Part shown: positions 6,503 to 30,204 of the stretch, piece by piece
Layout: each line of letters starts with the position of its first letter
How positions within the stretch are numbered: the stretch's first letter is position 1
NCBI GenBank assembly: GCA_018712435.1
Contig: DVGZ01000011.1
Span: forward strand, 1-33,248
DNA length: 33,248 nucleotides
Direction of reading: 5' to 3'
Source: Candidatus Caccousia avicola
GTDB lineage: Bacteria; Bacillota; Clostridia; Oscillospirales; Acutalibacteraceae
Translations under genes and position numbers: made by a program
The notes under the pieces: generated by a model
What the model saw: the letters and a program-made list of their open reading frames with translations, nothing else
What the model was told of the DNA's origin: nothing
Databases searched by the model: none

Positions 6503-6577
6503 GGGTGGCGACCTCCGTCCAATTGGTTTCATCTTGTCTCTTTTCCTTTTTTGAGGGAGAGAAAAGGGGACGTTTCT

Positions 6578-6606
6578 ATTATACTGCTTTAGGAGAAAAA
6601 AGGCAA
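6578..6606 (-). promoter_or_regulatory. Promoter of the LacI-family gene
   Basis: Read on the minus strand: TTGCCT (6606-6601), 17-bp spacer, perfect TATAAT (6583-6578). Transcription would begin near 6571. Two GTTAAC palindromes lie directly upstream of the -35. Confidence 0.7.
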
Positions 6607-6611
6607 TATCC

Positions 6612-6631
6612 TTGTTAACATTTGTTAACAT
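6612..6631. promoter_or_regulatory. Tandem GTTAAC palindromes (candidate LacI-family operator pair)
   Basis: A perfect 10-bp tandem repeat TTGTTAACAT (6612-6621 and 6622-6631), each containing the palindrome GTTAAC (6614-6619, 6624-6629). The centres are one helical turn apart, just upstream of the regulator's -35 box. A pair of similar sites flanks the divergent promoter. Operator function is inferred. Confidence 0.55.
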
Positions 6632-7847: not shown

Positions 7848-7866
7848 GAGGAGAGGAGGAACGAAA

Positions 7867-8820
7867 ATGAGTAATGCCGAAAAACGCAGAGCCCGCAAGG
7901 AGAGTCAGAACAGCGGCGCGGCCATCCTGCACCTGAACCGGATTAAGCCCGCGACCAACGCGATTTTCAACATCCTTTTTGTCATTCTCTCTTTCATCTG
8001 CATCTTCCCGGTCTTTTATGTCATCATGATCTCGGTCAGCTCCGAGGAATCCATCCGCCTCAATGGTTACGCCCTGTGGCCGGAGACCTTCTCGAACAGC
8101 GCCTACATGTTCCTCTGGAACGAGCGCGGCACCATCTTCCAGGCCCTTTTGGTGTCCATTGCCGTCACGGTGATCGGCACGGTGCTCGGCGTGCTGCTGA
8201 CCACCAGCATGGGTTATGTGCTGTCCCGTCCGCAGTACCGTCTGCGCGGCTTCTTCAACTGGGTTGTCTTTATCCCGATGATTTTCAACGGCGGCATGGT
8301 GGCCAACTATGTGGTCATGGTGAACATGCTGCATCTGAACGACACCATCTGGAGTTTGGTTCTGCCGCTGGCGGTGTCGAGCTTCAACGTCATCATCTGT
8401 AAAACCTTCTTCCGCACCACGATTCCCGATTCGATCATCGAGTCGGCCAAGATTGACGGCGCAACGCAGCTGACCGTCTTCGGCCGCATCGTGATTCCGA
8501 TTTCCAAGCCTGTGTTCGCTACCATCGGCCTGTTTTTGACCTTCGGCTACTGGAACGACTGGTTCCAGTCCAGCTTGTACATCAACCGGACGGATCTGCT
8601 CAGCCTGCAGGCTCTGCTGAACAACATGATGAAGAATCTGGACTACATCGCCAACAACCCCTCCGCCGGCCTGAGCTTGCAGCAGTACCGCAACTCCATG
8701 CCGTCCGAGTCGGTCCGTATGGCTATCGCGGTGGTCATCGTGGTGCCGATCGCCTGTGCCTATCCCTTCTTCCAGAAGTACTTCATCTCCGGTCTGACGA
8801 TCGGCGCGGTCAAGGGCTGA
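7867..8820 (+). CDS. ABC transporter permease, LplC/YtcP-type
   Basis: A 317-residue permease that pairs with the preceding one. The first roughly 30 residues are basic and cytoplasmic, followed by about six membrane segments. The EAA-type loop reads IESAKIDGATQLTVFGRIVI. The frame is open from 7825, inside the upstream gene, but GAGGAGGAACGAAA immediately precedes ATG 7867, which I take as the start. It should form a heterodimeric membrane pore with the LplB-type protein and receive substrate from the lipoprotein encoded next. Confidence 0.9.
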   Translation: MSNAEKRRARKESQNSGAAILHLNRIKPATNAIFNILFVILSFICIFPVFYVIMISVSSEESIRLNGYALWPETFSNSAYMFLWNERGTIFQALLVSIAVTVIGTVLGVLLTTSMGYVLSRPQYRLRGFFNWVVFIPMIFNGGMVANYVVMVNMLHLNDTIWSLVLPLAVSSFNVIICKTFFRTTIPDSIIESAKIDGATQLTVFGRIVIPISKPVFATIGLFLTFGYWNDWFQSSLYINRTDLLSLQALLNNMMKNLDYIANNPSAGLSLQQYRNSMPSESVRMAIAVVIVVPIACAYPFFQKYFISGLTIGAVKG

Positions 8821-8896
8821 GTCCCGGCCGCTGTTCCCTTTGGTTTCCCAAGGTTTTCCTGTTAAAACTATATTTTATAGAAAAAGGAGAAACATC

Positions 8897-10420
8897 ATGA
8901 AAAAACTCAACAAGATTCTTGCAATGAGTATGGCAGCGCTCATGACGATGAGCCTGGCTTCCTGTTATCAGGCTCCCGCCAGCTCCGGCGCTGCTTCCAC
9001 CGGCGGCGACACCGCTTCCACCGGCGATACCGCCTCCACGGGCGGCGACGCGGCTTCCGGTGAGGTCGTCACCCTGAAATGGGTCAGCGTCGGCAACGGC
9101 CAGCCCAGCAACTACGACGCATGGCTCGAGCAGATCAATCCCTATCTGGAGGAGAAGATCGGCGTCAACCTTGATATGCAGATCGTTTCCTGGGGCGACT
9201 GGGACAACCGCCGCAGCGTAATCGTCAACACCGCCGGTGAGTACGACATCCTGTTCACCAACATGAACACCTATGTCAACGACATCACCATCGGCGCGTT
9301 CAAGGATATCACCGAGCTGGTTCAGACCGCCACGCCGGATCTGTATGCTTCCATCCCCGAGGATTACTGGGAGGCCTGCTATGTGGGCGGCAAGCTGTAT
9401 GCCGTTCCGTCCTACAAGGACTCCTCCATCAGTGAGTATCTGGTGTGGGACAAGGAGCTGGCGGAATCCACCGGCTTCACGATCCCCGAGTCCATCGACA
9501 TGAAGGATCTGGGCACCCTCACCGAGACCCTGACCGCCATGAAGGACAGCAAGGGCGAGGCTTCCTTCCCGATGAACCAGAACGGCGCGACCTGGGTTGC
9601 TTTCGAGTATGATAACCTGGGCACCGGCCTGCTGCCGATCGGCGTCCGCTATGACGACAAGAATGCCAAGGTTGTTTCCGTGCTGGAGCAGGAAGACATC
9701 CAGGCTTCCCTCGACACCTTCCATGAGTGGTATCAGGCCGGCATCATCAACTCCGATGCTGCCACGAAGCCTGAGGAGAACAACTACAAGCCGTGCAGCG
9801 TAGCACAGGGCTGGTCCGGCGCCGCCGTCACCACCTGGGGCCCGAACATGGGCGTTGAGGCTGCCGCTACGAAGCTTGGCCCGACGATCGTTTCCAACGA
9901 CACCGTGCGCGGCTCCATGAGCTGCATTTCCGCCAACTGCGCGAACCCGGAGAAGGCTCTCCAGCTGCTGGAACTGGTCAACACCGACAGCTATGTCCGT
10001 GACCTGCTGTACTACGGCGTGCAGGGCGACGACTGGGATTACACCGACGACAGCAAAGAGTGGGTCCACAGAAACAACACCAACTGGACCATGGCCGGCT
10101 ACACCCAGGGCAGCTTCTTCGCCGTCACCCCGACCGACGACTTCGACTTCAACCAGTACGACGAGGTGAAGGAACTCAACGAGAACGCTTCTCCTTCCGT
10201 GCTGCTGGGCTTCAGCCTTGACACCACCAACTTCAAGGATCAGCTGACGAACTGTGTCGCTGTCTACGAGCGCTACAAGGGCGAGCTGCTCACCGGCACC
10301 CGTGCCACCGATGAGATCGTTCCTCAGATTATGTCCGAGATGCGCGCCGCCGGTTTCGACGAGATCGTCGCGCAGTGCCAGGAGCAGGTCGACGCTTTCC
10401 TGGCCAGCAATGCCGGATAA
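8897..10420 (+). CDS. Solute-binding lipoprotein for oligosaccharides
   Basis: A 507-residue extracellular substrate-binding protein of an LplA-like group. The signal peptide (1-22) ends in the lipobox LASC with Cys23 as the lipidated residue. A low-complexity Gly/Ala/Ser/Thr linker (about 24-60) carries imperfect STGGD repeats, acting as a tether to the membrane. The rest is the two-lobed binding domain, rich in aromatic residues. AAAGGAG lies 7 nt before ATG 8897; the open frame from 8840 lacks support. The neighbouring alpha-mannosidases and GH130 enzyme suggest it captures mannose-containing glycans, but specificity is inferred. Confidence 0.9.
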   Translation: MKKLNKILAMSMAALMTMSLASCYQAPASSGAASTGGDTASTGDTASTGGDAASGEVVTLKWVSVGNGQPSNYDAWLEQINPYLEEKIGVNLDMQIVSWGDWDNRRSVIVNTAGEYDILFTNMNTYVNDITIGAFKDITELVQTATPDLYASIPEDYWEACYVGGKLYAVPSYKDSSISEYLVWDKELAESTGFTIPESIDMKDLGTLTETLTAMKDSKGEASFPMNQNGATWVAFEYDNLGTGLLPIGVRYDDKNAKVVSVLEQEDIQASLDTFHEWYQAGIINSDAATKPEENNYKPCSVAQGWSGAAVTTWGPNMGVEAAATKLGPTIVSNDTVRGSMSCISANCANPEKALQLLELVNTDSYVRDLLYYGVQGDDWDYTDDSKEWVHRNNTNWTMAGYTQGSFFAVTPTDDFDFNQYDEVKELNENASPSVLLGFSLDTTNFKDQLTNCVAVYERYKGELLTGTRATDEIVPQIMSEMRAAGFDEIVAQCQEQVDAFLASNAG

Positions 10421-10584: not shown

Positions 10585-12987
10585 ATGAAGCAGCACGCCA
10601 TCCGCACGGTGTACGCCGTGCACCACTCCCATACCGATATCGGCTACACCGATTTGCAGGAGCATGTCATCGACCTGCAAACCGACTATATCCGCAGCGC
10701 TCTGCGTCTGATGCGGGAACCGGAAAACGCGGATTTCCGCTGGAACTGTGAGACGCTGTACTGCGTGGAGCAGTTCTTTGAAAGCGCCGCGCCCGAGGAG
10801 CAGCGTTTCTTCCTGGAGCTGGCCGCGCAGGGGCGGCTCGGCCTTTCGGCCAACTATCTCAACTTCACGGATCTGCTCGACTGCGGGATCTATTCGCGCC
10901 GCCTGCACGCATGGAAGGAGCGCTTTGCCGATTCCGGCATCACGCTCCGCACCGCCATGTGCGCCGATATCAACGGCCTGTCCATGGGCCAGCGCGATGC
11001 AATGATTGACAACGGAATTGAATTTTTATACACTAATATTCACTGTCATCACGGAATGTATCCGCTGTGGCAGAACCAGAACGCCTATTTCTGGGAGAAC
11101 GCGGACGGCCGCCGCCTGCTGGTCTGGAACGGCGAGCATTATAACCTGGGAAATGTGCTCGGCCTGCGCCCCAACCATACCGTCAATTTCATGATGCTCG
11201 ACCGCCTCGGCGGCGATCCGCAGCCGCGGGACGACGTGGAAGCGCTGGCAAAGAATCTGGACGATTACCTGACCGAGTGTGAGGAAAACGGCTATCCATA
11301 TGACTTCATTCCCGCGTCGGTGTCCGGCGTGTTCAGCGACAACGCCCCGCCGGAGCCGCTGATCCTGCGCACGATCGAGGGCTTCCATGAGCGGTATGGA
11401 GACAAGGTGCGGGTGCGCATGGTCAGTTTGCAGGAGATGTACGGCGAGATTGCTCCGAAGCTGAAGGACGCGCCGGTTTTCCGGGGCGACCTCAACGACT
11501 GGTGGGCCCATGGCGTCGGCTCCACCCCGTATGCCGTCAAGCACTATCTCGGCGCGCGCCGCAGCTATGAGCTGGCCCGCCGCCTGGCTCCGGAGCTGGA
11601 CAAGAAGGACGGCGCTCTGGTGCGGGATACGGAGGACAGCCTGCTGCTTTACGCCGAGCACACCTGGGGCCATTCGGCCAGCATCACAAACCCGTATGAG
11701 TCGATGGTGCTCGACCTCGACATGCGCAAAAACGGCTACGCCAGCCGCGCGCACGAGGGCGCGGCGCGGATGCTCGGACGGATCGCGAGGGAGCAGGGCG
11801 ATATCCTGCGCTATTACGCGACCGAGGGCCGCATCCGTGTGCAGAACCCGACCGCGCTTTCCGGCCCGATGGCCGTGGAGTTCTACATCGAGACGCTGCC
11901 CGCGGGATTGCCCGCCGCCGTCATCCGCGCGGAGGACGGCCGGGAGCTGGCCTGCCAGGTCAGCCCGCACCCGCGCGGCCGCCGCATCACCTTTGTGGAC
12001 GATTTCGCGCCGGGCGAGTGGAAATCGTATTCGTATCACAGGGCCGAAGCCCCCGCGCAGCGATTGAACACCCGCCGGTGCTACGTCGGCGCGGAGCGCG
12101 TGCGCGATATCGTGAACGATTACGACCCCGTTTCCTACCGCCTGCCCTACGGCTTTGAAAACCGCTTTTTCCGCATTGGATACGAGGTCGGGCGCGGCCT
12201 GTGCAGTCTGTATGACAAGCGCGCCGGACGCGAGCTGATGGTGCGGGACGGCGTGCCGTTCTTCACCCCTGTCTATGAACGCACGCCGGTGCGCGCCGAA
12301 GGGCCCTGCCCGGCGGAGCAGGAGCGCCGTCTGCTGGGGCGCAACGTCCGGGGACAGCACGCGGAGCAGTTCCCTGCCGTGCTGGAGGAAGTGATCTGCG
12401 AAGAGCGCGGCCCCGTGTTCACCACGCTGCGCCTGCGCGGCTCCATGGTGGGGAGCGTTCACTGCGACGTGGTGCTCAAGCTGTATGAGGAGCTGCCCCG
12501 CATCGATCTGCGCGTGGAGCTGGGCAAGACGCTGTCCACCGACATCGAGAGCGTCTATGTGCCGGTGACGCTGGATCTTCCCGGTCACGAGCTGTGGCTG
12601 CGCAAGGGCGGCCGCGAGACCATGCGCCCCGGCGTGGATCAGCTGCCCGGCGGCGGCATGGAGTACAGCATGAGCGACGACGGCCTGGCCTGGCTGGGCG
12701 AGGACGGCGGCGTGCTGCTGGCTTCGCACGACGTCCCGCTGTTCTATTTCGGCGAGCTCACCCACCACCCGATCCGCCTGTGCGAAAACCGCCCGGAGGA
12801 CAATCATCGCCCGGTGTGGAGCTGGCTGATGAACAACATCTGGGAAACCAATTTCAAGCTGGATCTGTCCGGCTTTACCGAGTACCGCTACACTCTGTGG
12901 CTGACGGACGAAACCGGCCCCGAGCGCGCGATGGACGCTCTGCATGAGCGCATGTTTGAGCCCGTCGTGCGGATCGTGGGAGACTGA
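10585..12987 (+). CDS. GH38-like putative alpha-mannosidase
   Basis: An 800-residue cytoplasmic protein without a signal peptide. The N-terminus has the zinc-site motif HSHTD (His16 and Asp18). Asp128 in ADINGLS occupies the position of the GH38 nucleophile, and EHTWGH (359-363) matches the position of the last metal-binding histidine. The C-terminal half is beta-rich, as in GH38. It is shorter and more divergent than the 1033-residue enzyme at 14035, since the catalytic domain begins at residue 1. Some databases may label such proteins DUF5054. Alpha-mannosidase activity is plausible from motifs and context, but linkage specificity is unknown. Start: ATG after a GGGGG-containing site. Confidence 0.72.
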   Translation: MKQHAIRTVYAVHHSHTDIGYTDLQEHVIDLQTDYIRSALRLMREPENADFRWNCETLYCVEQFFESAAPEEQRFFLELAAQGRLGLSANYLNFTDLLDCGIYSRRLHAWKERFADSGITLRTAMCADINGLSMGQRDAMIDNGIEFLYTNIHCHHGMYPLWQNQNAYFWENADGRRLLVWNGEHYNLGNVLGLRPNHTVNFMMLDRLGGDPQPRDDVEALAKNLDDYLTECEENGYPYDFIPASVSGVFSDNAPPEPLILRTIEGFHERYGDKVRVRMVSLQEMYGEIAPKLKDAPVFRGDLNDWWAHGVGSTPYAVKHYLGARRSYELARRLAPELDKKDGALVRDTEDSLLLYAEHTWGHSASITNPYESMVLDLDMRKNGYASRAHEGAARMLGRIAREQGDILRYYATEGRIRVQNPTALSGPMAVEFYIETLPAGLPAAVIRAEDGRELACQVSPHPRGRRITFVDDFAPGEWKSYSYHRAEAPAQRLNTRRCYVGAERVRDIVNDYDPVSYRLPYGFENRFFRIGYEVGRGLCSLYDKRAGRELMVRDGVPFFTPVYERTPVRAEGPCPAEQERRLLGRNVRGQHAEQFPAVLEEVICEERGPVFTTLRLRGSMVGSVHCDVVLKLYEELPRIDLRVELGKTLSTDIESVYVPVTLDLPGHELWLRKGGRETMRPGVDQLPGGGMEYSMSDDGLAWLGEDGGVLLASHDVPLFYFGELTHHPIRLCENRPEDNHRPVWSWLMNNIWETNFKLDLSGFTEYRYTLWLTDETGPERAMDALHERMFEPVVRIVGD
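11006..11034 (+). promoter_or_regulatory. Promoter-like sequence inside the GH38-like gene
   Basis: TTGACA (11006-11011), 17-bp spacer and TACACT (11029-11034) lie in an AT-rich island of a GC-rich gene. The codons here (ATT, GAA, TTT, TTA, ACT, AAT) differ sharply from neighbours. If active it would supply extra mRNA for the downstream GH130, GH38, GH20 and GH3 genes. It could equally be chance. Confidence 0.3.
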
Positions 12988-13016: not shown

Positions 13017-14006
13017 ATGGCAAAGATTATCGGAAACGCATTACCCAACATCCCCTGGCAGGATCCGCCCGAGACGCTGCGCACCCCGCTGTGGCGCTTT
13101 GACGGCAACCCCATCATCGGCCGCGACGGCAACAAGCGCTCGAACAGCGTGTTCAACAGCGCGGTGGTCCCCTACAAGGACGGCTTCGCGGGCGTGTTCC
13201 GCTGCGACAGCCTGTCCATCAGCATGGACCTGTTTGCCGGGTTCAGCAAGGACGGCATCCACTGGATCATCGACGACGAGCCGATCCACATCGTGGGCGA
13301 CGACCCGGAGATCACAAAGCGCGAATACCGCTATGACGCGCGCGTCTGCCTGATGGAGGGCAAATACTACGTCAGCTGGTGCAACGGCTACCACGGCCCG
13401 ACGATCGGCCTGGCCTGGACGGAGGATTTCAAGACCTTCCATCAGCTGGAGAACGCGTTCCTCCCGTATAACCGCAACGGCGTTCTGTTCCCGCGCAAGA
13501 TCCAGGGACGCTATATGATGATGAGCCGTCCGAGCGACACGGGCCACACCCCGTTCGGCGATATCTTTGTCAGTCAGAGTGAGGACCTCGTCTACTGGGG
13601 CCGTCACCGCTACATGATGGGCGCTGTCCCGGGCGACACCTCCGCGTGGCAGAGCCTGAAAATCGGCCCCGGCCCCAGCCCGATCGAGACGGATGAGGGC
13701 TGGCTGCTGATTTACCACGGCGTGATCAACACCTGCAACGGCTATGTGTACCGCATGGGCGCGGCCCTGCTGGATCTCGACGAGCCGTGGAAGGTCAAGG
13801 CCAGAGGAAAGGATTATATCCTTGCTCCGCAGATGCTGTATGAGTGCGTGGGCGACGTGCCGAACGTGACCTTCCCCTGCGCGGCGCTGACGGACGCGCC
13901 GACCGGCCGCATCGCCGTTTACTACGGCTGCGCCGACACCGTCACCGGCCTGGCGTTTACCACCGTGGACCGCGTGCTCGATTACATCAAGGCAAACTCG
14001 TTCTGA
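13017..14006 (+). CDS. GH130 beta-mannoside phosphorylase
   Basis: A 329-residue five-bladed beta-propeller enzyme of family GH130. Asp107 in YDARV corresponds to the catalytic acid, in the DxRV motif of the family. The GLAWTEDF and YHGV stretches are also typical. The length of about 330 fits the subfamily that includes beta-1,4-mannosyl-N-acetylglucosamine and mannooligosaccharide phosphorylases rather than the longer mannosylglucose phosphorylases. It would split Man-beta-1,4-GlcNAc with phosphate into mannose-1-phosphate and GlcNAc. Flanking GH38 and GH20 genes and the downstream mutase/isomerase favour the N-glycan core substrate over beta-mannan. No signal peptide. AAAGGAGG precedes the ATG. 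Confidence 0.9.
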   Translation: MAKIIGNALPNIPWQDPPETLRTPLWRFDGNPIIGRDGNKRSNSVFNSAVVPYKDGFAGVFRCDSLSISMDLFAGFSKDGIHWIIDDEPIHIVGDDPEITKREYRYDARVCLMEGKYYVSWCNGYHGPTIGLAWTEDFKTFHQLENAFLPYNRNGVLFPRKIQGRYMMMSRPSDTGHTPFGDIFVSQSEDLVYWGRHRYMMGAVPGDTSAWQSLKIGPGPSPIETDEGWLLIYHGVINTCNGYVYRMGAALLDLDEPWKVKARGKDYILAPQMLYECVGDVPNVTFPCAALTDAPTGRIAVYYGCADTVTGLAFTTVDRVLDYIKANSF

Positions 14007-14034: not shown

Positions 14035-17000
14035 ATGGAGACTATGAGCTTTCTTGACAAACGCATCAACGGGATCTGCACGGAGCTGCAAAAGCTTTCC
14101 GTCAAGCAGAAATTCCCCACCGACAGCTGGGTATACAAGCCGGGCAACTTCCTGCGCCCGGAGGACGCGGACGCGGACGCCGCTCCGTTTGAGCCGTTCG
14201 ACTGCCGCACCATGCACTGGTACGGCCCGGACAAGCACTACTGGTTCCGCGCCGACGTGACCGTCCCGCCCGAGCTGGACGGCAAGCCGCTGTGGATGCA
14301 CGTCTGCACGCAGATCGACGAGTGGGACGACGCGAAAAACCCGCAGTTCCTTCTGTTCGTCAACGGCGTGGTGACGCAGGGCATCGACATGAACCACCGC
14401 GACGTGCTGCTGGACCGCTGCGCGAAGGCGGGCACGCAGTACCGTCTGGAAATGCAGGCCTACACCGGCATTCTGCACACGGAGTTCAACCTGATCGTGG
14501 ATCTGCGCGAGGTGGATCCGGCGATCACAGCGCTGTATTATGACATGGTCGTGCCGCTGCAGGCGTTCCCGCGCCTGGATCCGGACAGCAAGGCCCGCCA
14601 CGATCTCGAACGCGTGCTGAACGAGGCCGTCAACCTGCTGGATCTGCGCACGCCGTATAACGACAGCTTCTATGCCAGCGTGGACGAGGCCCGCCGCTAT
14701 CTCGACAAGGCGCTGTATACGGACCTTGCCGGAAACGACGAGGTGATCGCCAGCTGCATCGGCCACACGCACATTGACGTGGCGTGGTGGTGGACCGTGG
14801 CTCAGACGCGCGAGAAGGTCTGCCGCAGCTTCGCGACGGTCCTCAAGCTGATGGACGAATACCCGAACTATAAATTCATGTCGAGCCAGCCGCAGCTGTA
14901 TTTCTTCCTCAAGGAGCGTTATCCGGAGCTGTATGAGCAGGTGAAGAAGCGCGTCGCCGAGGGCCGCTGGGAGCCCGAGGGCGGCATGTGGGTGGAAGCC
15001 GACTGCAACCTGACGAGCGGCGAGAGCCTGGTGCGTCAGTTCCTCTACGGCAAGCGCTTTTTCAAGGAGGAGTTCGGCCTGGACAACCGCATTCTGTGGC
15101 TGCCCGACGTGTTCGGCTACTCCGGCGCGCTGCCGCAGATCATGAAGAAGTGCGGCATCGACTATTTCATGACGACGAAGCTCGCGTGGAACCAGTTCAA
15201 CAAAATGCCCTACGACACCTTCCGTTGGCGCGGCGTGGACGGCACGGAGATCCTCACCCATCTCGTCACGACGCTGGGCGTCGGCCAGGATGAAAAGGAC
15301 TTCTTCACCACCTACAACGGCATGCTGCATCCCGACGCCATCATCGGCGGCTGGCACCGCTACCAGCAGAAGGACATCAACAACGACATTCTGATCTCCT
15401 ACGGCTACGGAGACGGCGGCGGCGGACCGACCCGCGCCATGCTGGAAACCTCCCTGCGCATGGAGAAGGGAATCGAGGGCCTGCCGAAGGTGCGTCAGGC
15501 GTTTGCCCGCACGTTCTTCGACGAGCTGGACGAGCGCGTGAGCGGCAACCGCCGTCTGCCTACCTGGGAGGGCGAGCTGTACTTTGAATACCACCGCGGC
15601 ACCCTGACCTCCATGGCGCGCAACAAGCGTTCCAACCGCAAGGCGGAGCTGCACATGATGGATCTCGAGCTGCTCAGCGTGCTGGCCGCGAAGGAAGTGC
15701 CGTATCCCGCCGAGGCAATCGACCGCCTGTGGCACGGCATCCTCCTGAACCAGTTCCACGACATCCTGCCCGGCTCCTCCATCCATGAGGTGTACGAGGT
15801 CACCAAGCGCGAGTATGAGCAGATGGAGGAAGAGATCGGCAAGCTGCGCGACGAGCGCCTGGCCGCTCTGACCCCGGCGGGCGAGGGAATCACCGTGTTC
15901 AACACCACCGGCTTTGCGCGCCATGACGTGGTGGAGCTGGGTGACTGCACCGCCGCCGCGCTGTCCGACAGTGAGGGCCATGTGTATCCGGTGCAGCAGA
16001 CGGAGAACGGCGCGGTCGTCTATGTGGACGGCCTGCCCGCCAAGGGACGCAAGACGTTTGCTCCCGCCGCTGCTCCCGCTGCCGCCGGCCGCTTTGTGCT
16101 GGGTGCGGACGGCCATACGCTGGAAACGCCGTTCTATGCGGTGCGCTTTGACGAGAACGGCCAGATTTCCGGCCTGTTCGACAAGGAAAACCGCCGCGAG
16201 GTGCTCCAGGCCGGCAAGGCCGGAAACCTCCTGCGCGTGTTTGAGGATAAGCCCATTTATTACGATAACTGGGATATTGATATCTACTACACGGAGAAGT
16301 TCTGGGACGTGACGGATCTTCGGGAATTCCGCTGGACGGAGACCGGCCCGGTGCGCGCGACGCTGCATATCGAGCGCGCGTTCAGCAACTCCACGATCGC
16401 GCAGGATATCCATTTCTACGCCGACACCCGCCGCATCGACTTTGTGACCACGGTGGAGTGGCACGAGCACCAGCATCTGCTCAAAGTGCAGTTCCCGATC
16501 AACGTGCACACCGACGAGGCGACCTTCGAGATCCAGTACGGCAACCTCACCCGCAAGACCCACACCAACACCAGCTGGGACAAGGCGCGGTTTGAGAGCT
16601 GCGGCCAGAAGTGGGCCGATCTGTCCGAAGGCCATTACGGCGTGAGCCTGCTCAACGACTGCAAGTACGGCCATTCCGTGAAGGACAGCTGCATTTCGCT
16701 GACGCTCATCAAGTCCGGCATTGAGCCGAACCCGACCACCGATCAGGAGACGCATCACTTCACCTACGCGATCTATCCTCACGCCGAGACCTGGCGCGCG
16801 GCGGGCACGGTGCGTGAGGCGTACTTCCTCAACCAGCCCGCGCTGGCTGTGGCGGGCGGCGTCCCGGGCGACAGCTTCTCCCTGGCCTTCTGCGACGCGC
16901 CCAACGTGGTCGTGGAGACCGTCAAGCAGGCCGAGGACGGCGACGGCGTGATCGTGCGTATGTACGAGAGCGAGAACGCCCTGACCGAGACGGCGCTGCA

Positions 17001-17136
17001 CTGGGGACTCCCCTTCGCTTCCGCCGAGAGCTGCGACTGCCTGGAGCAGCCGGACGGCGAGCCCGTCGCGGTGGAGGATGGCAGCGTGCGCTTCACCATC
17101 AAGCCCTATGAGATCAAGACGCTGCGCATCCGCTGA
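14035..17136 (+). CDS. GH38 alpha-mannosidase
   Basis: A 1033-residue cytoplasmic alpha-mannosidase of the large Ams1-like GH38 class. An N-terminal beta domain (about 1-230) precedes the catalytic barrel. The metal site and nucleophile are complete: His246 and Asp248 (GHTHIDVAWWW), Asp358 (LPDVFGYSG) and His575 (NQFHDILPGS). GDGGGGP at 460-466 and the C-terminal DNWDIDIYY motif are also conserved. It removes terminal alpha-linked mannose, as in high-mannose glycans. AAAGGG lies 8 nt before ATG 14035; an internal ATG nine bases on is less well spaced. It sits between the GH130 and GH20 genes. Confidence 0.95.
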   Translation: METMSFLDKRINGICTELQKLSVKQKFPTDSWVYKPGNFLRPEDADADAAPFEPFDCRTMHWYGPDKHYWFRADVTVPPELDGKPLWMHVCTQIDEWDDAKNPQFLLFVNGVVTQGIDMNHRDVLLDRCAKAGTQYRLEMQAYTGILHTEFNLIVDLREVDPAITALYYDMVVPLQAFPRLDPDSKARHDLERVLNEAVNLLDLRTPYNDSFYASVDEARRYLDKALYTDLAGNDEVIASCIGHTHIDVAWWWTVAQTREKVCRSFATVLKLMDEYPNYKFMSSQPQLYFFLKERYPELYEQVKKRVAEGRWEPEGGMWVEADCNLTSGESLVRQFLYGKRFFKEEFGLDNRILWLPDVFGYSGALPQIMKKCGIDYFMTTKLAWNQFNKMPYDTFRWRGVDGTEILTHLVTTLGVGQDEKDFFTTYNGMLHPDAIIGGWHRYQQKDINNDILISYGYGDGGGGPTRAMLETSLRMEKGIEGLPKVRQAFARTFFDELDERVSGNRRLPTWEGELYFEYHRGTLTSMARNKRSNRKAELHMMDLELLSVLAAKEVPYPAEAIDRLWHGILLNQFHDILPGSSIHEVYEVTKREYEQMEEEIGKLRDERLAALTPAGEGITVFNTTGFARHDVVELGDCTAAALSDSEGHVYPVQQTENGAVVYVDGLPAKGRKTFAPAAAPAAAGRFVLGADGHTLETPFYAVRFDENGQISGLFDKENRREVLQAGKAGNLLRVFEDKPIYYDNWDIDIYYTEKFWDVTDLREFRWTETGPVRATLHIERAFSNSTIAQDIHFYADTRRIDFVTTVEWHEHQHLLKVQFPINVHTDEATFEIQYGNLTRKTHTNTSWDKARFESCGQKWADLSEGHYGVSLLNDCKYGHSVKDSCISLTLIKSGIEPNPTTDQETHHFTYAIYPHAETWRAAGTVREAYFLNQPALAVAGGVPGDSFSLAFCDAPNVVVETVKQAEDGDGVIVRMYESENALTETALHWGLPFASAESCDCLEQPDGEPVAVEDGSVRFTIKPYEIKTLRIR

Positions 17137-17190: not shown

Positions 17191-19005
17191 ATGGCCATCG
17201 ATTTTTTGCCGCAGCCCAAACGGGTGGATTCCCGTTCCGACGGGCTGACCTTAACCCCTCATACCCGCGTCGTCCTGTGTGCCGGGACGGCGCCCGGCGC
17301 GCTCCTGTACGCGCAGATGCTGCGCGACGCTGTCCGTGACCACGCGGGGCTTTGCCCCGCGCTCGGGCGCGGGGAACCGGCGAAGGGGGATTTTGCCCTT
17401 CGCCTGGATCCCGCACAGTCCGCGGGCCATTATACAATCACCGTTTCGCCCGAGGGCGTGACGGTGGCCGCCGGGGATGACGAAGCCCTGTGCAACGGCG
17501 TGCAGACGCTGATCCAGCTGGTGGAGCGCTGCGGCGCGGTGCTGCCGGGCCTGTTCGTCGAGGACTGGCCGGATCTGCCGAACCGCGGGTACTATCTGGA
17601 CTGCTCGCGCGGGCGTGTGCCGAAGCTGGACTATCTGAAGCGCATGGCGGATCTGCTGTGCCGCTGCAAGATCAACCAGTGGCAGCTGTACATCGAGCAC
17701 ACCTACCTGTTCCGCGATCTGTCCGAGGCATGGCGCGACGACACGCCGCTGACCGCCGACGACATTCTGGAACTGGACGATTACTGCGCCGCGCGCCACA
17801 TCGAGCTGGTGCCGTCGCTGTCCACCTTCGGGCATATGTATAAGATTCTGTCCACCAAGACGTGCTGCGGCCTGTGCGAGCTTCCGGATTCCGAGAAGAT
17901 TCCGTTCAGCTTCACTTACGCCGGGGCGCATCACACGCTGAATGTTTCCAACCCGGACGTGCTGCCCTTCATCAAAAAGCTGATTGACGAGTACCGTCCG
18001 CTGTTCCGCTCGAAGAAGTTCAACATCTGCGCGGACGAAACCTTCGATCTCGGCAAGGGCCGCAGCAAGGCGCTTGCGGACGAGCTGGGCGAGAAGGAGC
18101 TGTATGTCCGCCACGTCAAGGCGCTGTGCGAGTATCTCGTGGAGCAGGGCTGCACGCCGATGTTCTGGGGCGATATCATGTGGCGTTTCCCGCAGAGCTG
18201 CGCCGAGCTTCCCCCGGAGACGATCTGTCTGAACTGGGGCTATCTGCCGAACCAGCGCGAGAACGAGATCCGCGATATCGCCGCCAGCGGCATCACCCAG
18301 TACGCCTGCCCCGGCGTGTGCGGCTGGAACCGCTGGGTGCCGCTGTACCGCAGCGCGTACAGCAACAACCGCGTCATGTGCGGCCACGCCCACAAGTACC
18401 ATGCCATCGGCATTCTGAATACCGACTGGGGCGATTATGCTCATGTCAACGACCCGCGCCTGACCATCCCCGGCGTGCTGTACGGCGCGGCCTTCGCGTG
18501 GAACGCGGAGCCGGTCGGGATGGAGGAGCTGGACGAAGCGATTTCCCGCGTCTGTTACGGCGATCCCTCGGGCCGTCTGATGGGCGCGCTCACCGACATG
18601 TCCGATCATGAGATCTTCGACTGGCAGCACGCCGTCAACTGGATCGAGGGCGACGACGCGCGCCGCGCCGAGCTGCTCGCGGAGCTGGACATGACAAAGG
18701 TTCCGAAAGCCAACGAGGACGTGGCCGCCGCGCTTACGCGGATTCTGGCCTGCTCCGCCGGTCTGCCCGCCGGAAAGAAGGAGATCATCAGTCTGGCGTC
18801 CGTCACGGCGGAGAGCGTCACGCTGTGGAACGAGATCGGCCAGTGGCTGACCGGCCCGCGTAACACCGATCCCGCGCTTGCCGCCCGTTTGGAACACTGG
18901 TACGCGCTGTATCAGGCACAGTGGAGACAGGTAAGCCGGGAAAGCGGCCTGCCGAAGCTGACGGCGCTGATCGTGCGCTATGCCGACCTGCTTCGCGGCC
19001 GGTAA
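17191..19005 (+). CDS. GH20-type beta-N-acetylhexosaminidase
   Basis: A 604-residue enzyme without a signal peptide. An N-terminal alpha/beta domain (about 1-125) precedes the barrel, which starts near NRGYYLDCSRGRVPK. The catalytic Asp-Glu pair of GH20 is Asp282-Glu283 in NICADETFDLG. The preceding residues differ from the usual HxGGDE form, marking a divergent clade. It probably removes terminal beta-GlcNAc (or GalNAc) from imported glycans through substrate-assisted catalysis. The GAGG before the ATG is modest. It is 54 nt after the GH38 gene and 19 nt before the GH3 gene, clearly the same operon. Confidence 0.85.
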   Translation: MAIDFLPQPKRVDSRSDGLTLTPHTRVVLCAGTAPGALLYAQMLRDAVRDHAGLCPALGRGEPAKGDFALRLDPAQSAGHYTITVSPEGVTVAAGDDEALCNGVQTLIQLVERCGAVLPGLFVEDWPDLPNRGYYLDCSRGRVPKLDYLKRMADLLCRCKINQWQLYIEHTYLFRDLSEAWRDDTPLTADDILELDDYCAARHIELVPSLSTFGHMYKILSTKTCCGLCELPDSEKIPFSFTYAGAHHTLNVSNPDVLPFIKKLIDEYRPLFRSKKFNICADETFDLGKGRSKALADELGEKELYVRHVKALCEYLVEQGCTPMFWGDIMWRFPQSCAELPPETICLNWGYLPNQRENEIRDIAASGITQYACPGVCGWNRWVPLYRSAYSNNRVMCGHAHKYHAIGILNTDWGDYAHVNDPRLTIPGVLYGAAFAWNAEPVGMEELDEAISRVCYGDPSGRLMGALTDMSDHEIFDWQHAVNWIEGDDARRAELLAELDMTKVPKANEDVAAALTRILACSAGLPAGKKEIISLASVTAESVTLWNEIGQWLTGPRNTDPALAARLEHWYALYQAQWRQVSRESGLPKLTALIVRYADLLRGR

Positions 19006-19024: not shown

Positions 19025-21628
19025 ATGTTTCCTTATCAAGACCCCAAGCTGCCGGTGGAGGAGCGCGTCGAGGATCTGCTGGCGCGCATGACGCTGCGGG
19101 AAAAAATCCTGCAAACGGATCAATACTTCTCCGGCGACTTTACCACGCAGGACGAGAACGGCCTTGTCACCGCGATGGACTTGAACCGTCTGGACGAGCT
19201 GCTGAACGGTTTCAGCGTGGGCAGCATCCAGCTGCGCGGCATGAACGCCGCGCAGGCGAACGCCGTCCAGCGGTACGCGCTGGAAAACACGCGGCTGGGC
19301 ATCCCGTTTTTGTTCAGCGAGGAGGCGCTGCACGGCCTGATGACCGGCAAAGCGACCAGCTTCCCGCAGCAGATCGGCCTGGCCGCTACCTTCGACCCCG
19401 CGCTCGGCCGCGAAATGGGCCGCGCCATCGGCACGGAGAGCCGCGCGCAGGGCATTCATGAAACCTACAGCCCCGTCATGGATCTGATCCGCGATCCGCG
19501 CTATGGACGCGGGGAGGAATCCTACGGCGAGGACACGCACCTGTGCGGTGAGTTCGCGCGCGAGGTGGTGCGCGGGATGCAGGGCGAAAACCTGTCCGAT
19601 CCCGACGCTATCGCCGCTGAGCCGAAGCACTACGCCGGCTACGGAAACCCCGTGGGCGGCCTGAACTGCGCGCCCTGCACGATGGGGCGGCACGACGTGT
19701 TCAGCGATTGCCTGCCGGTGTTCGAGGCCGCATTTGTGGATGGCGGCGCGTGCAACGCGATGTGCAGCTACAACTCGATCGACAGCATCCCCGTCTCGAT
19801 GGACCATGAGCTGCTGACCGACGTGCTGCGCGGCCAGTATGGCATGCCGGGCTTTGTGCGCACCGACCTGACGGCGGTTTCCCGTCTGTATGACTGGCAT
19901 TTCATCGCCCCCACCCCGGAGGAGGCCATCCGTCTCGGTCTGGAAGCGGGCGTGGATTTGCAGCTTTACGATTTCCCGCACGACGTGTGGCAGAACGCGA
20001 TCGAGCATCTGATCGAGAGCGGAAAGATGGATATTTCCGTATTGGATACCGCCTGCCGCCGCATTCTCGGTATGAAGTTCCGTCTCGGCTTGTTCGAGAA
20101 GCCTTTCACCGACGAGGACCGCGCGGACAAGGTGCTCCGCTGCCCGGAGCATCTGGATCTGGCTCGCCGGATCGCGCGGGAATCCGTTGTGCTGCTGAAA
20201 AACGACGGACTGCTTCCGCTGCGCAAGGATCTGTCCTGCGTGGCGGTCATCGGCCCCGGCGCGGATACCCCGGCGCTGGGCGATTACTCCGAGACGCGCG
20301 GGCGCACCGGCGCGGTCACGGTGCTCGACGGCATCCGCGCCGCCGTGTCCCCCGATACCCGTGTGCTGCACGCGCGCGGCTGCAACTTCCTCGGGCAGGC
20401 GCTGCACCCGTTTGACCCCGGCATGCTCTGCGACGAGGACGGCAATCCCGGATTGACGGGCCGGTACTACAACGGCCCGCGCCCCGAGGGCGTTCCGGTG
20501 CAGACCCGCAACGACCGCACGGTAAACTTTAACTGGATCTTTGCCCTGCCGCACCCGGAGCTGGACGCGCACTGCTTCAGCGCCGCGTGGACCGGCACGG
20601 TCTGCATGCCCCGCACGATGGACGGGTGCATCGGCCTGAGCACGCAGGACAGCATGCGGCTGTACATTGACGGCGAATTGCTGATCGACGGCTGGGGGCC
20701 GGACAAGAGCGCCGATCAGGCGCTGGACTTCCACTTCGAAGCGGGCCGCCGCTATGAGGTGCGCATTGAGTTCACCAACGACGGCCGTGGCGCGCGCGTC
20801 ATCTTCGGCTACAGCGCCGGACGCGAGGACTTCGCCGCCGCGGTGGAAGCCGCGAAGCAGGCCGACGTGGCGATTCTGTGCATGGGCGACAACGAGGAGA
20901 CCAGCGGCGAGAACTTCGACCGCGTTTCGCTTGATCTGCCGGGCCGCCAGCTGGAGCTGGTGAAGGCCGTCTACGAGACCGGCACGCCGGTGGTATTGCT
21001 GCTGCAAAGCGGCCGTCCGGTGAGCGCGAACTGGGAGAACGAGCATCTGCCCGCCATTCTGGAAGCCTGGTTTCCGGGCGAGCAGGGCGGCGCGGGAGTG
21101 GCCGACGTTCTGTTCGGCGACGCGTCCCCCAGCGGGCGGCTTCCGATCACCTTCCCGCGCAGCGTCGGGCAGGTGCCCTGCCACTACAGCCGCCGTCCGG
21201 GCGGCGGAAAGCGGTATGTCGAGATGGACTGGATGCCGCTGTACCCCTTCGGCTACGGCCTGAGCTATACCAGCTTTGCCTTCCGCGATCTCGCGCTGAA
21301 TCAGGCGGAAATCGATTCCGACGGCTCCGTGGAGGTCAGCTTCACCGTGGAAAACACGGGGGAGAAGGCGGGCATTGCCGTGCCGCAGATCTATGTGCGG
21401 GACTTTTACAGCTCCGTCGTCAAGCCGGAGCGTCAGCTGGCCGCCTTCACGCGCGTGGAGCTGGCCCCGGGCGAAAGCCGCCGCGTCAGCGTGACGGTGG
21501 GGCCGCGCGCGCTGCGCACCCTTGGCCCGGACTATGTGTGGCGTGTCGAGCCCGGCGATTTTGAAATTCAGCTGGGAGACAACGCGGAAAATATCCTGCT
21601 GCGCGCCGGTCTGACGGTGCGCGGCTGA
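19025..21628 (+). CDS. GH3 beta-glycosidase with inserted PA14 domain
   Basis: An 867-residue family 3 glycoside hydrolase without a signal peptide. The N-terminal barrel (about 40-330) has the KH pair (201-202) and the probable nucleophile Asp281 in VRTDLTAV, where many relatives have SDW. The C-terminal sandwich begins near 385 (ESVVLLKNDGLLPL), is interrupted by a PA14 module (about 472-597), and resumes with GDNEETSGE. A fibronectin III-like domain ends the protein. This is a beta-glucosidase/xylosidase-type layout, not the NagZ-type hexosaminidase. Its role in an N-glycan locus is unclear. The start ATG follows GGGAGGTG; the frame opens earlier inside the GH20 gene. Confidence 0.9.
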   Translation: MFPYQDPKLPVEERVEDLLARMTLREKILQTDQYFSGDFTTQDENGLVTAMDLNRLDELLNGFSVGSIQLRGMNAAQANAVQRYALENTRLGIPFLFSEEALHGLMTGKATSFPQQIGLAATFDPALGREMGRAIGTESRAQGIHETYSPVMDLIRDPRYGRGEESYGEDTHLCGEFAREVVRGMQGENLSDPDAIAAEPKHYAGYGNPVGGLNCAPCTMGRHDVFSDCLPVFEAAFVDGGACNAMCSYNSIDSIPVSMDHELLTDVLRGQYGMPGFVRTDLTAVSRLYDWHFIAPTPEEAIRLGLEAGVDLQLYDFPHDVWQNAIEHLIESGKMDISVLDTACRRILGMKFRLGLFEKPFTDEDRADKVLRCPEHLDLARRIARESVVLLKNDGLLPLRKDLSCVAVIGPGADTPALGDYSETRGRTGAVTVLDGIRAAVSPDTRVLHARGCNFLGQALHPFDPGMLCDEDGNPGLTGRYYNGPRPEGVPVQTRNDRTVNFNWIFALPHPELDAHCFSAAWTGTVCMPRTMDGCIGLSTQDSMRLYIDGELLIDGWGPDKSADQALDFHFEAGRRYEVRIEFTNDGRGARVIFGYSAGREDFAAAVEAAKQADVAILCMGDNEETSGENFDRVSLDLPGRQLELVKAVYETGTPVVLLLQSGRPVSANWENEHLPAILEAWFPGEQGGAGVADVLFGDASPSGRLPITFPRSVGQVPCHYSRRPGGGKRYVEMDWMPLYPFGYGLSYTSFAFRDLALNQAEIDSDGSVEVSFTVENTGEKAGIAVPQIYVRDFYSSVVKPERQLAAFTRVELAPGESRRVSVTVGPRALRTLGPDYVWRVEPGDFEIQLGDNAENILLRAGLTVRG

Positions 21629-21998: not shown

Positions 21999-22088
21999 GG
22001 GGCTCTGCCCCAAACCCCGCAGCCTTTTGAAAAAGGCTGGCGAAAACTTCCAGTTTGCTTTTATGGCAGCTTTTTGAAAATTCAAAAA
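21999..22088. repeat. Intergenic palindromic elements upstream of the mutase gene
   Basis: Three inverted repeats follow each other: GGGGC-TCT-GCCCC (21999-22011), CAGCCTTTT-GA-AAAAGGCTG (22020-22039) and TTTTTGAA-AA-TTCAAAAA (22071-22088). The first two resemble dispersed palindromes common in clostridial intergenic DNA and echo the 64-76 element. The rest of the gap (21740-21990) contains no gene I can support. Confidence 0.55.
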
Positions 22089-22106
22089 AACAGGAGTGTG
22101 AATGGG

Positions 22107-23798
22107 ATGAATTCCGTAGAAACTCTTTACCGGCGCTGGCTGGCACAACCCGGCTTGCCGGAGGATCTGGCCGCTGAGCTTCGCTCCGTTGAGGGCGACG
22201 CCGACGCCATCAACGACCGCTTTTACCGTGATTTGGCCTTCGGAACCGGCGGCCTGCGCGGCGTGATCGGAGCGGGAACCAACCGGATGAACCTCTACAC
22301 CGTGCGTAAGGCCACGCAGGGATTGGCCGATTACCTCAACGCCACCGATCTGCCGAAAAAGGTTGCGATTGCGCACGACAGCCGCAACAAGGGCGAGCTG
22401 TTCGCGCGGGAAACGGCCCGCGTGCTGGCCGCCAACGGCATCACCGCCTGCCTGTATCCCCGCCTTGAACCGACCCCGGCGCTCTCGTGGGCCGTCCGGG
22501 ATCTCGGGTGCGGCGCGGGCGTGTGCGTCACCGCCAGCCATAACCCCGCCAAGTACAACGGCTACAAGGTCTACGGGGCGGACGGCTGCCAGATTACCCT
22601 CGAAGCCGCCGAAAAGATTCTGGCCGCTATTGAGTCCATTGATATCTTTGACGGCGTGAAAACGGTCGACTACGACGAAGCAGCGGCGGACGGCCGTATT
22701 GTCACCATCGGGGAGGACTGCATCAACCGGTTTGTGGACGCCGTCTATGCGCAGCGCGTGGGCGACGGCGAGGGCATTGACTCGCTCAAACTGGTGTATA
22801 CGCCGCTCAACGGCTCCGGACTGGAATGCGTGAAAAAGCTTCTCGCGAAGCTGGGCGTTACTCATCTCACCGTGGTGCCGGAGCAGGAACAGCCCGACGG
22901 AAACTTCCCGACCTGCCCGTATCCGAACCCGGAGATCCGCGAAGCCATGGAGAAGGGGCTGGAGCTGTGCGCGAAGGTGCAGCCGGACCTGCTGCTCGGC
23001 ACCGATCCCGACTGTGACCGCTGCGGCACCGCCGTGCCGGACGGAAAGGGCGGTTACCGGCTGATCACGGGAAATGAGATGGGCATTTTGCTGCTCGACT
23101 ACATCTGCCGCACCCGTCTGGCGCGCGGCACCATGCCGAAGGATCCCGTCGCCGTGACGACCATCGTTTCGACCGATATGGCCACGCCCGTCGCGGCCAA
23201 ATACGGCGTGGAGCTTCGCCGCACGCTCACCGGCTTCAAGTTCATCGGCGAGCAGATCGGCTTGCTCGAAGAGGAAGGCCGCGCGGATCGCTATATTTTC
23301 GGCTTTGAGGAGAGCTACGGCTACCTTTCCGGCGCACATGTGCGCGACAAGGACGCGGTCAACGCCACACTGTTGATCTGCGAAGCCGCCGCATGGTACG
23401 CCCAGCAGGGAATGACGCTGCTCGACGCCATGGAAGCGCTGTACCGCGAGTTCGGCTACTACCGCAATGGCCTGTGCTCGTTCACCTTCGAGGGCGAGAG
23501 CGGCATGCACGCCATGCAGCGTCTGATGGAGCAGCTGCGCGATTGCCCGCCCGCTGAGATCGGCGGCTACCGGGTCGAGCAGGCCGTGGACTATAACGTT
23601 GAGGGCGGCTATCATGGCCTGCCGCAGGCGGATGTGCTCGAATATACGCTGGCGGGCGGCCACAAGTTTATGGTGCGCCCCTCCGGCACCGAGCCGAAGA
23701 TCAAGGTTTATCTGTCCGCCGTCGGCGCAAGCGAGGCTGAGGCCGACGGAATCAATGAAACACTGGCCGCCGCCGCGGCTTCCATGATGAAAGGATGA
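22107..23798 (+). CDS. Phosphomannomutase/phosphoglucomutase (phosphohexomutase)
   Basis: A 563-residue alpha-D-phosphohexomutase. All four functional loops are visible: the phosphoserine loop TASHNP with Ser144, the metal loop GTDPDCDR (Asp300, 302, 304), the sugar-recognition GFEESYG (399-405) and the phosphate-binding RPSGTEPK (524-531). It interconverts sugar-1-phosphate and sugar-6-phosphate. Next to GH130 and manA, the likely task is mannose-1-phosphate to mannose-6-phosphate, although glucose phosphates are possible. AGGAG lies 10 nt before ATG 22107. A TTG 33 bases upstream is in frame but lies inside a palindrome. manA follows after 7 nt. Confidence 0.92.
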   Translation: MNSVETLYRRWLAQPGLPEDLAAELRSVEGDADAINDRFYRDLAFGTGGLRGVIGAGTNRMNLYTVRKATQGLADYLNATDLPKKVAIAHDSRNKGELFARETARVLAANGITACLYPRLEPTPALSWAVRDLGCGAGVCVTASHNPAKYNGYKVYGADGCQITLEAAEKILAAIESIDIFDGVKTVDYDEAAADGRIVTIGEDCINRFVDAVYAQRVGDGEGIDSLKLVYTPLNGSGLECVKKLLAKLGVTHLTVVPEQEQPDGNFPTCPYPNPEIREAMEKGLELCAKVQPDLLLGTDPDCDRCGTAVPDGKGGYRLITGNEMGILLLDYICRTRLARGTMPKDPVAVTTIVSTDMATPVAAKYGVELRRTLTGFKFIGEQIGLLEEEGRADRYIFGFEESYGYLSGAHVRDKDAVNATLLICEAAAWYAQQGMTLLDAMEALYREFGYYRNGLCSFTFEGESGMHAMQRLMEQLRDCPPAEIGGYRVEQAVDYNVEGGYHGLPQADVLEYTLAGGHKFMVRPSGTEPKIKVYLSAVGASEAEADGINETLAAAAASMMKG

Positions 23799-23805
23799 TC
23801 GCATC

Positions 23806-24726
23806 GTGTCCATGCTGAAACTGAAGCCCGCCTGTAAGGATTATCTCTGGGGAGGCGACAAGCTGCGCACCGCCTTCGGCGTCGAAAGCGACCTGCATCC
23901 GCTGGCTGAAGCGTGGGTGCTTTCCTGCCACCCGGACGGCCCCTCCGTCATTGTGGGAGGGAAGGACGACGGAAAGACGCTTGCCGCTTATCTCACAGAA
24001 CACGGCAAAGAGGTTCTGGGCGAGGATTGCCGGAAATTCGAGGATTTCCCCATCCTCACCAAGCTGATTGACGCGAAGGGCAACCTCTCCATTCAGGTCC
24101 ATCCGTCCAACGAGTACGCGCTCGAACACGAGCACCAGTACGGCAAGACGGAAATGTGGTATATTCTCGACTGTGAGCCGGGCGCGTTCCTCTATTACGG
24201 GTTTGATCACGAGATCAGTCGTGAGGAATTTGAGCGCCGGATCAAGGACAACACCCTCACCGAGGTGCTGCACGCCGCGCCGGTGCACAAGGGCGATGTG
24301 TTCTTCATTCCCTCCGGCACGCTGCACGCGATCTGCGAGGGGATCGTCATCGCGGAGATCCAGCAGAATTCCAACGTGACGTACCGCGTGTACGATTACG
24401 GCCGCGTGGGCGCGGACGGAAAGCCACGCGCCCTGCACATCCCGCAGGCGCTGGCGGTGACGGAGTGCAAGCCCGCCCAAGCGCATGACTTCGGCGGCCA
24501 TCTGGCCCAGTGCGAGTATTTCACCGTCGACGTGTACGAGAACGGCTTTTCCGGCACGGCGGGAGCGGACAGCTTTGTCTCGCTGCTCGTTGTGGACGGC
24601 GCGGGCGAGGTGTCCTGCGCCGGGGAGACGCTGCCGGTGAAGAAGGGCGACAGCATTTTCATCCCGGCCAACAGCGGCGATTTCACCGTGTCCGGCACGC
24701 TGCAAACGCTCTGCACCCGCGTATAA
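23806..24726 (+). CDS. manA: Mannose-6-phosphate isomerase, class I
   Basis: A 306-residue cupin-type isomerase converting mannose-6-phosphate to fructose-6-phosphate. The zinc ligands are seen as Gln97 and His99 (SIQVHPSN), Glu116 (KTEMWY) and His174 (IPSGTLHAI). It is of the compact Firmicutes type, shorter than E. coli ManA. I choose GTG 23806 as start because AAGGA (23791-23795) is 10 nt upstream; ATG 23812 would be 16 nt away. The Shine-Dalgarno overlaps the end of the mutase gene, so the two genes are probably translationally coupled. Together they feed GH130-derived mannose-1-phosphate and GH38-derived mannose (after phosphorylation) into glycolysis. Confidence 0.94.
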   Translation: MSMLKLKPACKDYLWGGDKLRTAFGVESDLHPLAEAWVLSCHPDGPSVIVGGKDDGKTLAAYLTEHGKEVLGEDCRKFEDFPILTKLIDAKGNLSIQVHPSNEYALEHEHQYGKTEMWYILDCEPGAFLYYGFDHEISREEFERRIKDNTLTEVLHAAPVHKGDVFFIPSGTLHAICEGIVIAEIQQNSNVTYRVYDYGRVGADGKPRALHIPQALAVTECKPAQAHDFGGHLAQCEYFTVDVYENGFSGTAGADSFVSLLVVDGAGEVSCAGETLPVKKGDSIFIPANSGDFTVSGTLQTLCTRV

Positions 24727-29215: not shown

Positions 29216-29217
29216 CG

Positions 29218-30111: not shown

Positions 30112-30139
30112 AGCGGATTTCTCTCCTTTCATTGAAAGA

Positions 30140-30168
30140 GGGGGAGAAGCGCATCGCTCTCCTCCCCC
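30140..30168 (-). terminator. Attenuator-like hairpin between binding-protein and permease genes
   Basis: A GC-rich hairpin pairs GGGGGAG (30140-30146) with CTCCCCC (30162-30168) and AGCG with CGCT around a CAT loop. On the minus strand only a weak TCTTTC follows. Such stems after solute-binding-protein genes often stabilise the upstream mRNA and reduce downstream expression. Confidence 0.55.
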
Positions 30169-30204
30169 TGTTTTCACATACCGTCGGATATGATCCGTGC
30201 GGTA

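Follow-up and report, generated by a model that had tools for sequence, protein, structure and literature searches.

The GH3 gene at 19025-21628 of the window (the whole 33,248-nucleotide stretch of Candidatus Caccousia avicola DNA analysed here) is part of a conserved alpha-mannoside and N-acetylglucosamine gene cluster, and we favour, at somewhat better than even confidence, the reading that it encodes a cytosolic retaining beta-xylosidase that would remove the core-mannose beta-1,2-xylose of plant-type N-glycan fragments. Gene order, domains, active-site residues and co-occurrence were computed, and they describe an enzyme that is ordinary in its family and informative in its setting.

The GH3 gene and its cluster

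The GH3 reading frame lies on the plus strand, ends with its stop at 21628 and offers an in-frame ATG at 18980, which would overlap the GH20 gene, or at 19025. We favour 19025 as the start because a Shine-Dalgarno-like ggaggtgg lies directly 5' of it and the alignments of the orthologs begin at the Met encoded there. The protein consists of a GH3 N-terminal domain (residues 51-348) and a GH3 C-terminal domain (residues 388-748; E-values of 8.8e-55 and 2.2e-61 for the pair), with PA14 inserted in the latter and an Fn3-like domain at residues 786-853, all above the Pfam cut-offs; this PA14 is the single match to PF07691 in the whole genome. Frame, domains and coordinates agree with the preliminary description of a GH3 gene with PA14 placed 19 nt after the GH20 gene; the GH3 gene is intact, GH20 ends at 19005, and the GH38, GH130 and GH20 neighbours that the description named were borne out by homology. 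No N-terminal signal-like stretch was seen by eye, and we infer a cytosolic location. The gene is not a chance reading frame, since orthologs of 60-98% identity occur at 19 other loci (L032-L050). A pseudogene was rejected, the frame being open throughout and the catalytic residues kept. None of 35 pattern matches on viral contigs was a relative. Terminator-like sites numbered 15 (14.2 on average after shuffling) and promoter-like sites 8 (4.0 after shuffling, sd 2.1), and neither scan was counted as evidence. The features are as follows.

5474..6631, minus strand: divergent LacI-type regulator (its sensor domain passes the cut-off, its DNA-binding domain falls slightly short)
6882..7847, plus strand: ABC permease (homology)
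7825..8820, plus strand: ABC permease (homology)
8840..10420, plus strand: NgtS-like DUF3502 solute-binding protein (a lipoprotein signal is visible by eye; the true start is probably internal)
10585..12987, plus strand: GH38-like protein of 800 aa (only a weak GH38 N-terminal match)
13017..14006, plus strand: GH130 mannoside phosphorylase (best PDB match Uhgb_MP)
14035..17136, plus strand: GH38 alpha-mannosidase, 1033 aa (best PDB match Ams1)
17191..19005, plus strand: GH20 beta-N-acetylhexosaminidase, 604 aa (homology)
19025..21628, plus strand: GH3 protein of 867 aa carrying an inserted PA14 and, at the C terminus, an Fn3-like domain (profile search), the proposed cytosolic beta-xylosidase
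19322..19324, plus strand: Glu100, strand-c subsite -1 residue (Glu in 20 of 20 orthologs)
19865..19870, plus strand: nucleophile Asp281 and Leu282 (residue 282 is Leu in 13 and Met in 7 of 20 orthologs)
20441..20800, plus strand: PA14, residues 473-592, within the C-terminal domain of GH3
20909..20911, plus strand: acid/base Glu629 (aligned to the Glu-to-Gln site of PDB 8c7f, E517Q)
22074..23798, plus strand: phosphoglucomutase/phosphomannomutase family (start uncertain; mannose role suggested by context)
23806..24726, plus strand: mannose-6-phosphate isomerase, type I

The components of an N-glycan cluster, namely an NgtS-like binding protein, permeases, an alpha-mannosidase and a Man-GlcNAc phosphorylase, were each identified here by homology. 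The binding protein has three sequence relatives in the PDB at an E-value of 0.001 (5swa, 5mlt and 5suo); in the available text of PMC5215778, 5SUO, 5SWA and 5SWB are NgtS of Streptococcus pneumoniae, which binds Man1GlcNAc and Man5GlcNAc. The GH130 protein matches Uhgb_MP at 488 bits, with a mannooligosaccharide phosphorylase (5ayd) close behind at 464 bits, and Uhgb_MP is listed as an N-glycan phosphorylase in an excerpt of PMC8950772. There is no fucosidase in the cluster. The GH38-like protein carries an HSHTDIGYT motif near its start, has no PDB relative by sequence and shows 62-96% identity to its relatives in the five loci aligned; to judge from its sequence it is possibly a divergent mannosidase, and its AlphaFold model was unusable (49.5). 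A second ABC transporter, with two permeases and an SBP_bac_1/8 binding protein, lies at 28379-31500 on the minus strand.

Conservation of gene order and co-occurrence

A scan of genome contigs returned 21 loci, comprising the 19 orthologous ones and two at 39% identity (L051 and L052) that are probably not orthologs. The loci belong to Gemmiger, Subdoligranulum, Anaeromassilibacillus and other Clostridia, and for several of them the title or the species name refers to poultry. By tblastn of the window proteins, the order GH38-GH20-GH3 is kept in 15 of the 21 loci, which are the 15 at identities of at least 74%, and GH130 is present in 14 of these 15, the contig of L041 beginning past it. As for the others, L044 has the transporter, the regulator and the GH38-like gene of the cluster nearby on the opposite strand, while L049, a distant ortholog, has GH130 8.7 kb from GH3 and an arabinofuranosidase-like neighbour that is a weak match below cut-off. 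No cluster gene was in view near GH3 in L043, L048, L051 or L052, and the L048 contig ends within GH3.

Several of these loci hold additional features. An MFS-type transporter gene stands between GH20 and GH3 in 11 of the 15 ordered loci (L033, L034, L035, L037, L038, L039, L040, L041, L042, L045 and L050), an assignment checked against Pfam for L040 and made by sequence appearance for the remaining loci; the transporter could export xylose or carry a monosaccharide. A sulfatase-like frame lies between GH130 and GH38 at L033:3009-3647. L051 and L052 carry one and the same GH3-PA14 gene, on two contigs of a single Clostridia assembly from roe deer; the two copies show no difference in the N-terminal part compared.

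Co-occurrence was assessed in 250 genomes of the family, own genome included, drawn from a larger group. GH3 (E-value to 1e-150) was found in five genomes and the NgtS-like protein (to 1e-60) in eight, and all five GH3 carriers fall within these eight; GH130 (to 1e-120) occurs in 40, and the eight genomes that have it at identities of at least 75% include all five GH3 carriers. The chance of the overlap with the NgtS-like protein would be 7e-9 if the genes were independent and kinship is ignored, or 2.5e-5 when counted by genus (3 of 3 within 5 of 135), and both values are too small because of kinship. Adjacency to the cluster is not needed for this co-occurrence. In G147, which by its coordinates is the genome of L043, some 157 kb separate GH3 from a cluster of GH38, GH130, binding-protein and permease genes. 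In G082 the distance from GH3 to the transporter is about 75 kb, and GH130 is on another contig than GH3. In G203 the GH3 gene, the transporter and GH130 are on three different contigs, and GH3, standing at a contig edge, may yet be linked to the others. The binding proteins of these three genomes are only 37-42% identical to that of the window. The cluster occurs without GH3 in G141 and G247, and the binding protein without GH3 in G085, so that GH3 has the look of an accessory serving only some N-glycans. The second binding protein of the window was found at an E-value of 1e-60 in its own genome only (1 of 250) and is therefore uninformative as a co-occurrence control. The genetic link to N-glycan enzymes that is looked for in a plant N-glycan beta-1,2-xylosidase is thus seen both in gene order and in co-occurrence, and the earlier suggestion of a substrate shared with GH20 gains from both: GH3 very likely belongs to the same alpha-mannoside/GlcNAc pathway.

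Active site, relatives and likely substrate

The catalytic residues of a GH3 enzyme (Asp281, the Lys201-His202 pair and Glu629) are present in all 20 orthologs scored, that is, the window protein and L032-L050, and Asp281 and Glu629 align with the mutation sites D281N and E517Q of 8c7f. A NagZ-type GlcNAcase was rejected, the protein having the domain-2 acid/base Glu that is absent from the NagZ-type group in the available part of PMC6987092. The same text reports Glu on strand c in the GH3 beta-xylosidases compared and Asp in beta-glucosidases, and cites Prevotella bryantii Xyl3B, in which the change of Glu115 to Asp gave higher activity on pNP-beta-Glc. Glu100, placed just after strand 96-99 of the AlphaFold model, corresponds to the beta-xylosidase state. 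Among 35 further GH3 rows, 31 were scorable at the strand-c and post-nucleophile positions, and Trp follows the nucleophile in none of the 16 other Glu rows versus 12 of the 15 Asp rows (Fisher p 3e-6, the rows not being independent). In barley ExoI the nucleophile is Asp285. Its Trp286 belongs to a clamp for glucosides, according to an excerpt of PMC9508125. The RTDLTAV that had been noted in place of SDW is indeed present at residues 279-285, with its nucleophile intact; it differs from SDW, as claimed, and the usual absence of Trp in Glu-type enzymes accounts for this, so that the missing SDW is part of a Glu-type pattern and not a lone anomaly. A Glu at the place of Glu100 is not exclusive to beta-xylosidases and is no proof of one, because the isoprimeverose-producing GH3 5yot also has Glu at the aligned position.

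In a tree of N-terminal domains with 54 rows (four of 55 dropped as too short and three reference rows added), the 20 orthologs group in a single clade (100/99). L051/L052 (100/95), a Persicobacter row, L053 (96/88), and, weakly, a Parabacteroides row, L054 (81/78), attach to this clade, and all of them have PA14 and the strand-c Glu. Together they stand apart from E. coli BglX, the SDW rows and the WWNEALHG group, and the clade holds no characterised sequence among these rows; the enzyme was placed in no characterised clade with an unrelated substrate, and its neighbourhood is kept. L004 has PA14-aligned columns yet falls among the WWNEALHG rows, which fits PA14 having been inserted in GH3 more than once, and two independent insertions are inferred in the available text of PMC6987092. 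The Persicobacter GH3 gene is followed, by annotation, by two alpha-L-fucosidase genes, GH2, a sulfatase and a beta-N-acetylhexosaminidase (the first fucosidase and GH2 checked against Pfam), a set that is by analogy reminiscent of plant N-glycan loci, but the locus may target another polysaccharide because genes for GH16, GH2, a cellulase-family protein and a further GH3 stand upstream of it. The Parabacteroides GH3 gene is followed by DUF4838 and GH20.

The alternative that survives best, although we consider it unlikely, is that the enzyme, as a beta-glucosidase or a beta-glycosidase of broad specificity, cleaves plant glucosides and plays only a loose role in the cluster. The GH3 family consists mostly of beta-glucosidases, and Foldseek places the compost beta-glucosidase 3u48 at the top of its ranking and finds xylosidases and glucosidases to be about as close as each other. 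The protein reached the cut-off of no NCBIfam model; the beta-glucosidase BglX model came nearest to its own (511.1 of 666 bits), an exo-beta-1,3/1,6-glucosidase model (NF052331) scored 519.5 of 1330 and a further glucosidase model, NF052330, 245.7 of 1300. The top bit score belongs to a beta-xylosidase/alpha-L-arabinosidase model (NF052329, 537.9 of 1050 needed), with other xylosidase models also below cut-off (NF041579, 492.2 of 1350; NF041776, 452.8 of 1250), and these profile scores do not settle xylosidase versus glucosidase. The strand-c Asp and common Trp of beta-glucosidases are replaced by Glu100 and Leu282, the tree sets the protein apart from BglX and the SDW rows, and the kept gene order and co-occurrence with N-glycan genes argue against a loose role. 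The earlier label of beta-glucosidase-type does not hold up against the strand-c Glu, the best PDB sequence match, which is the T. maritima beta-xylosidase, and the top NCBIfam score, itself below cut-off. The AlphaFold model (mean pLDDT 79.6) was used only for strand placement and fold ranking because several stretches with or near active-site residues fall below 50.

We rank next, as a further improbable reading, that the enzyme removes another beta-linked group from a mannose-rich glycan that is not of land-plant origin, either xylose carried by mannans or N-glycans of fungi, algae, molluscs or helminths, or a substituted sugar freed as a disaccharide. Beta-1,2-xylose is also found outside plants. 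The isoprimeverose-producing GH3 that shares the Glu releases a disaccharide, and sulfatase-type genes are found in the L033 cluster and beside the Persicobacter relative. Against this, no cluster gene marks fungal or algal mannan, and plant N-glycans are described as common in the gut in an excerpt of PMC9522356; of the complex plant or fungal glycan proposed before, the plant-type one is retained as the likeliest target.

Least probable of all is a beta-xylosidase/alpha-L-arabinosidase for xylan or arabinoxylan fragments unconnected to N-glycans, which the top NCBIfam score, the activity of the T. maritima match on xylo-oligosaccharides and the below-cut-off arabinofuranosidase-like neighbour of L049 would suit, but the neighbours are mannose and GlcNAc enzymes, a non-adjacent GH3 still tracks the N-glycan transporter and GH130, and feeding on xylan is unlikely without a xylose isomerase in the genome. 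A search with TIGR02630 found no xylose isomerase in the own genome and found it in 2 of 21 genome rows of relatives, G002 and G058 looking like one assembly, so that xylose would be wasted or exported. If the cells take off xylose merely for access to the core, this lack is no obstacle to the N-glycan reading and counts against a role in xylan use, but it equally fits xylose not being the sugar.

Proposed pathway and known systems

Under the favoured reading of a beta-xylosidase for plant-type N-glycans, the NgtS-like ABC transporter would import released fragments ending in Man-GlcNAc, GH20 would take off antennary GlcNAc, and GH38, perhaps with the GH38-like protein, would take off alpha-mannose. 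GH3 would take off the xylose, otherwise a block to the core, and GH130 would phosphorolyse Man-beta-1,4-GlcNAc, yielding GlcNAc and mannose-1-phosphate. This mannose-1-phosphate could be turned into fructose-6-phosphate by the mutase and the isomerase, which would pass mannose into glycolysis. The xylose specificity, the 1,2 linkage, the order of steps and the plant origin of the glycan are what we infer here. Weighing against this reading are the missing xylose isomerase and GH85 and PNGaseA enzymes, the cluster's want of a fucosidase, the four loci with no cluster gene in view, the Glu of 5yot, the BglX score, the upstream genes of the Persicobacter locus and a clade free of characterised members. 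The wider proposal, which we hold tentatively and rate a little below an even chance, is a Bacillota pathway for taking up xylosylated plant N-glycan cores whole and breaking them down inside the cytosol; in it a new clade of PA14-GH3 enzymes would serve to remove the blocking xylose, in cells unable to use that sugar.

The closest functional parallel described is Bacteroides massiliensis B035DRAFT_00995, a GH3 enzyme that, in the available text of PMC9522356, removes plant N-glycan beta-1,2-xylose once alpha-1,3-mannose is gone, is active among pNP substrates on pNP-beta-xylose only and leaves xylobiose uncut, and whose relatives lie in loci with GH29, GH3, GH130 and GH92. Compared by that description, both systems have GH3, GH130 in related loci and the same predicted cut, whereas B035DRAFT_00995 is predicted periplasmic, with PNGase and SusC/D, in Bacteroides, and the present protein has no visible signal, ABC import and a Bacillota host. 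The T. maritima beta-xylosidase (7zb3 and 8c7f, solved with xylo-oligosaccharides) likewise has the strand-c Glu and aligned catalytic Asp and Glu, but has SDY at the nucleophile, and the PA14 region of the window protein is unaligned in it. The S. pneumoniae N-glycan system (NgtS-P1-P2, GH38, GH92, GH125 and GH20C) shares the NgtS-type binding protein, ABC import and an intracellular GH38; the available part of PMC5215778 names no GH3 or GH130 there and concerns host-type N-glycans. The beta-glucosidases RmBgl3B and DesR also have PA14 inserted in GH3 domain 2, but in them the strand-c residue is Asp and subsite +1 holds a Trp, as described in the accessible part of PMC6987092. The accessible part of the review PMC10154615 names no GH3 enzyme. 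No report of a Bacillota GH3 with a plant N-glycan xylosidase role was found in a search that subscription literature mostly fell outside. A Xanthomonas GH3 xylosidase acts on plant N-glycans.

How plant N-glycans are broken down in the gut is known from Bacteroides, according to an excerpt of PMC9522356. If the favoured reading is right, Gemmiger-like bacteria would have a second, cytosolic, transporter-based route, extending the process to another phylum. Xylose is on plant, not mammalian, N-glycan trees; the gene would be a marker telling plant N-glycan users from host N-glycan users, its presence would, on the wider proposal, mark plant-glycoprotein scavengers among gut genomes, and the enzyme would be a candidate beta-1,2-xylosidase for glycan analysis.

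Two GH3 genes on plasmid-labelled contigs of Phocaeicola massiliensis were examined as possible relatives of B035DRAFT_00995. The first (L055:8294-17277) is in a GH2, AraC, GH2, GH3 arrangement by eye and encodes a protein that lacks PA14, has Glu as its strand-c residue and reads SDL around the nucleophile; no sulfatase was seen nearby among the listed frames of at least 250 aa. Around the second (L063), no GH2- or AraC-like neighbours or sulfatase were seen.

As for release of N-glycans from protein, searches of the own genome found no GH85, no PNGaseA and a single GH18 match, LysM-like by eye, so that release would depend on other bacteria. GH85 is present in 6 of 21 genome rows of relatives, with nine matches in the L043 genome (G069) and six in the L048 genome (G074), most of them in frames longer than 1000 aa and up to 1969 aa.
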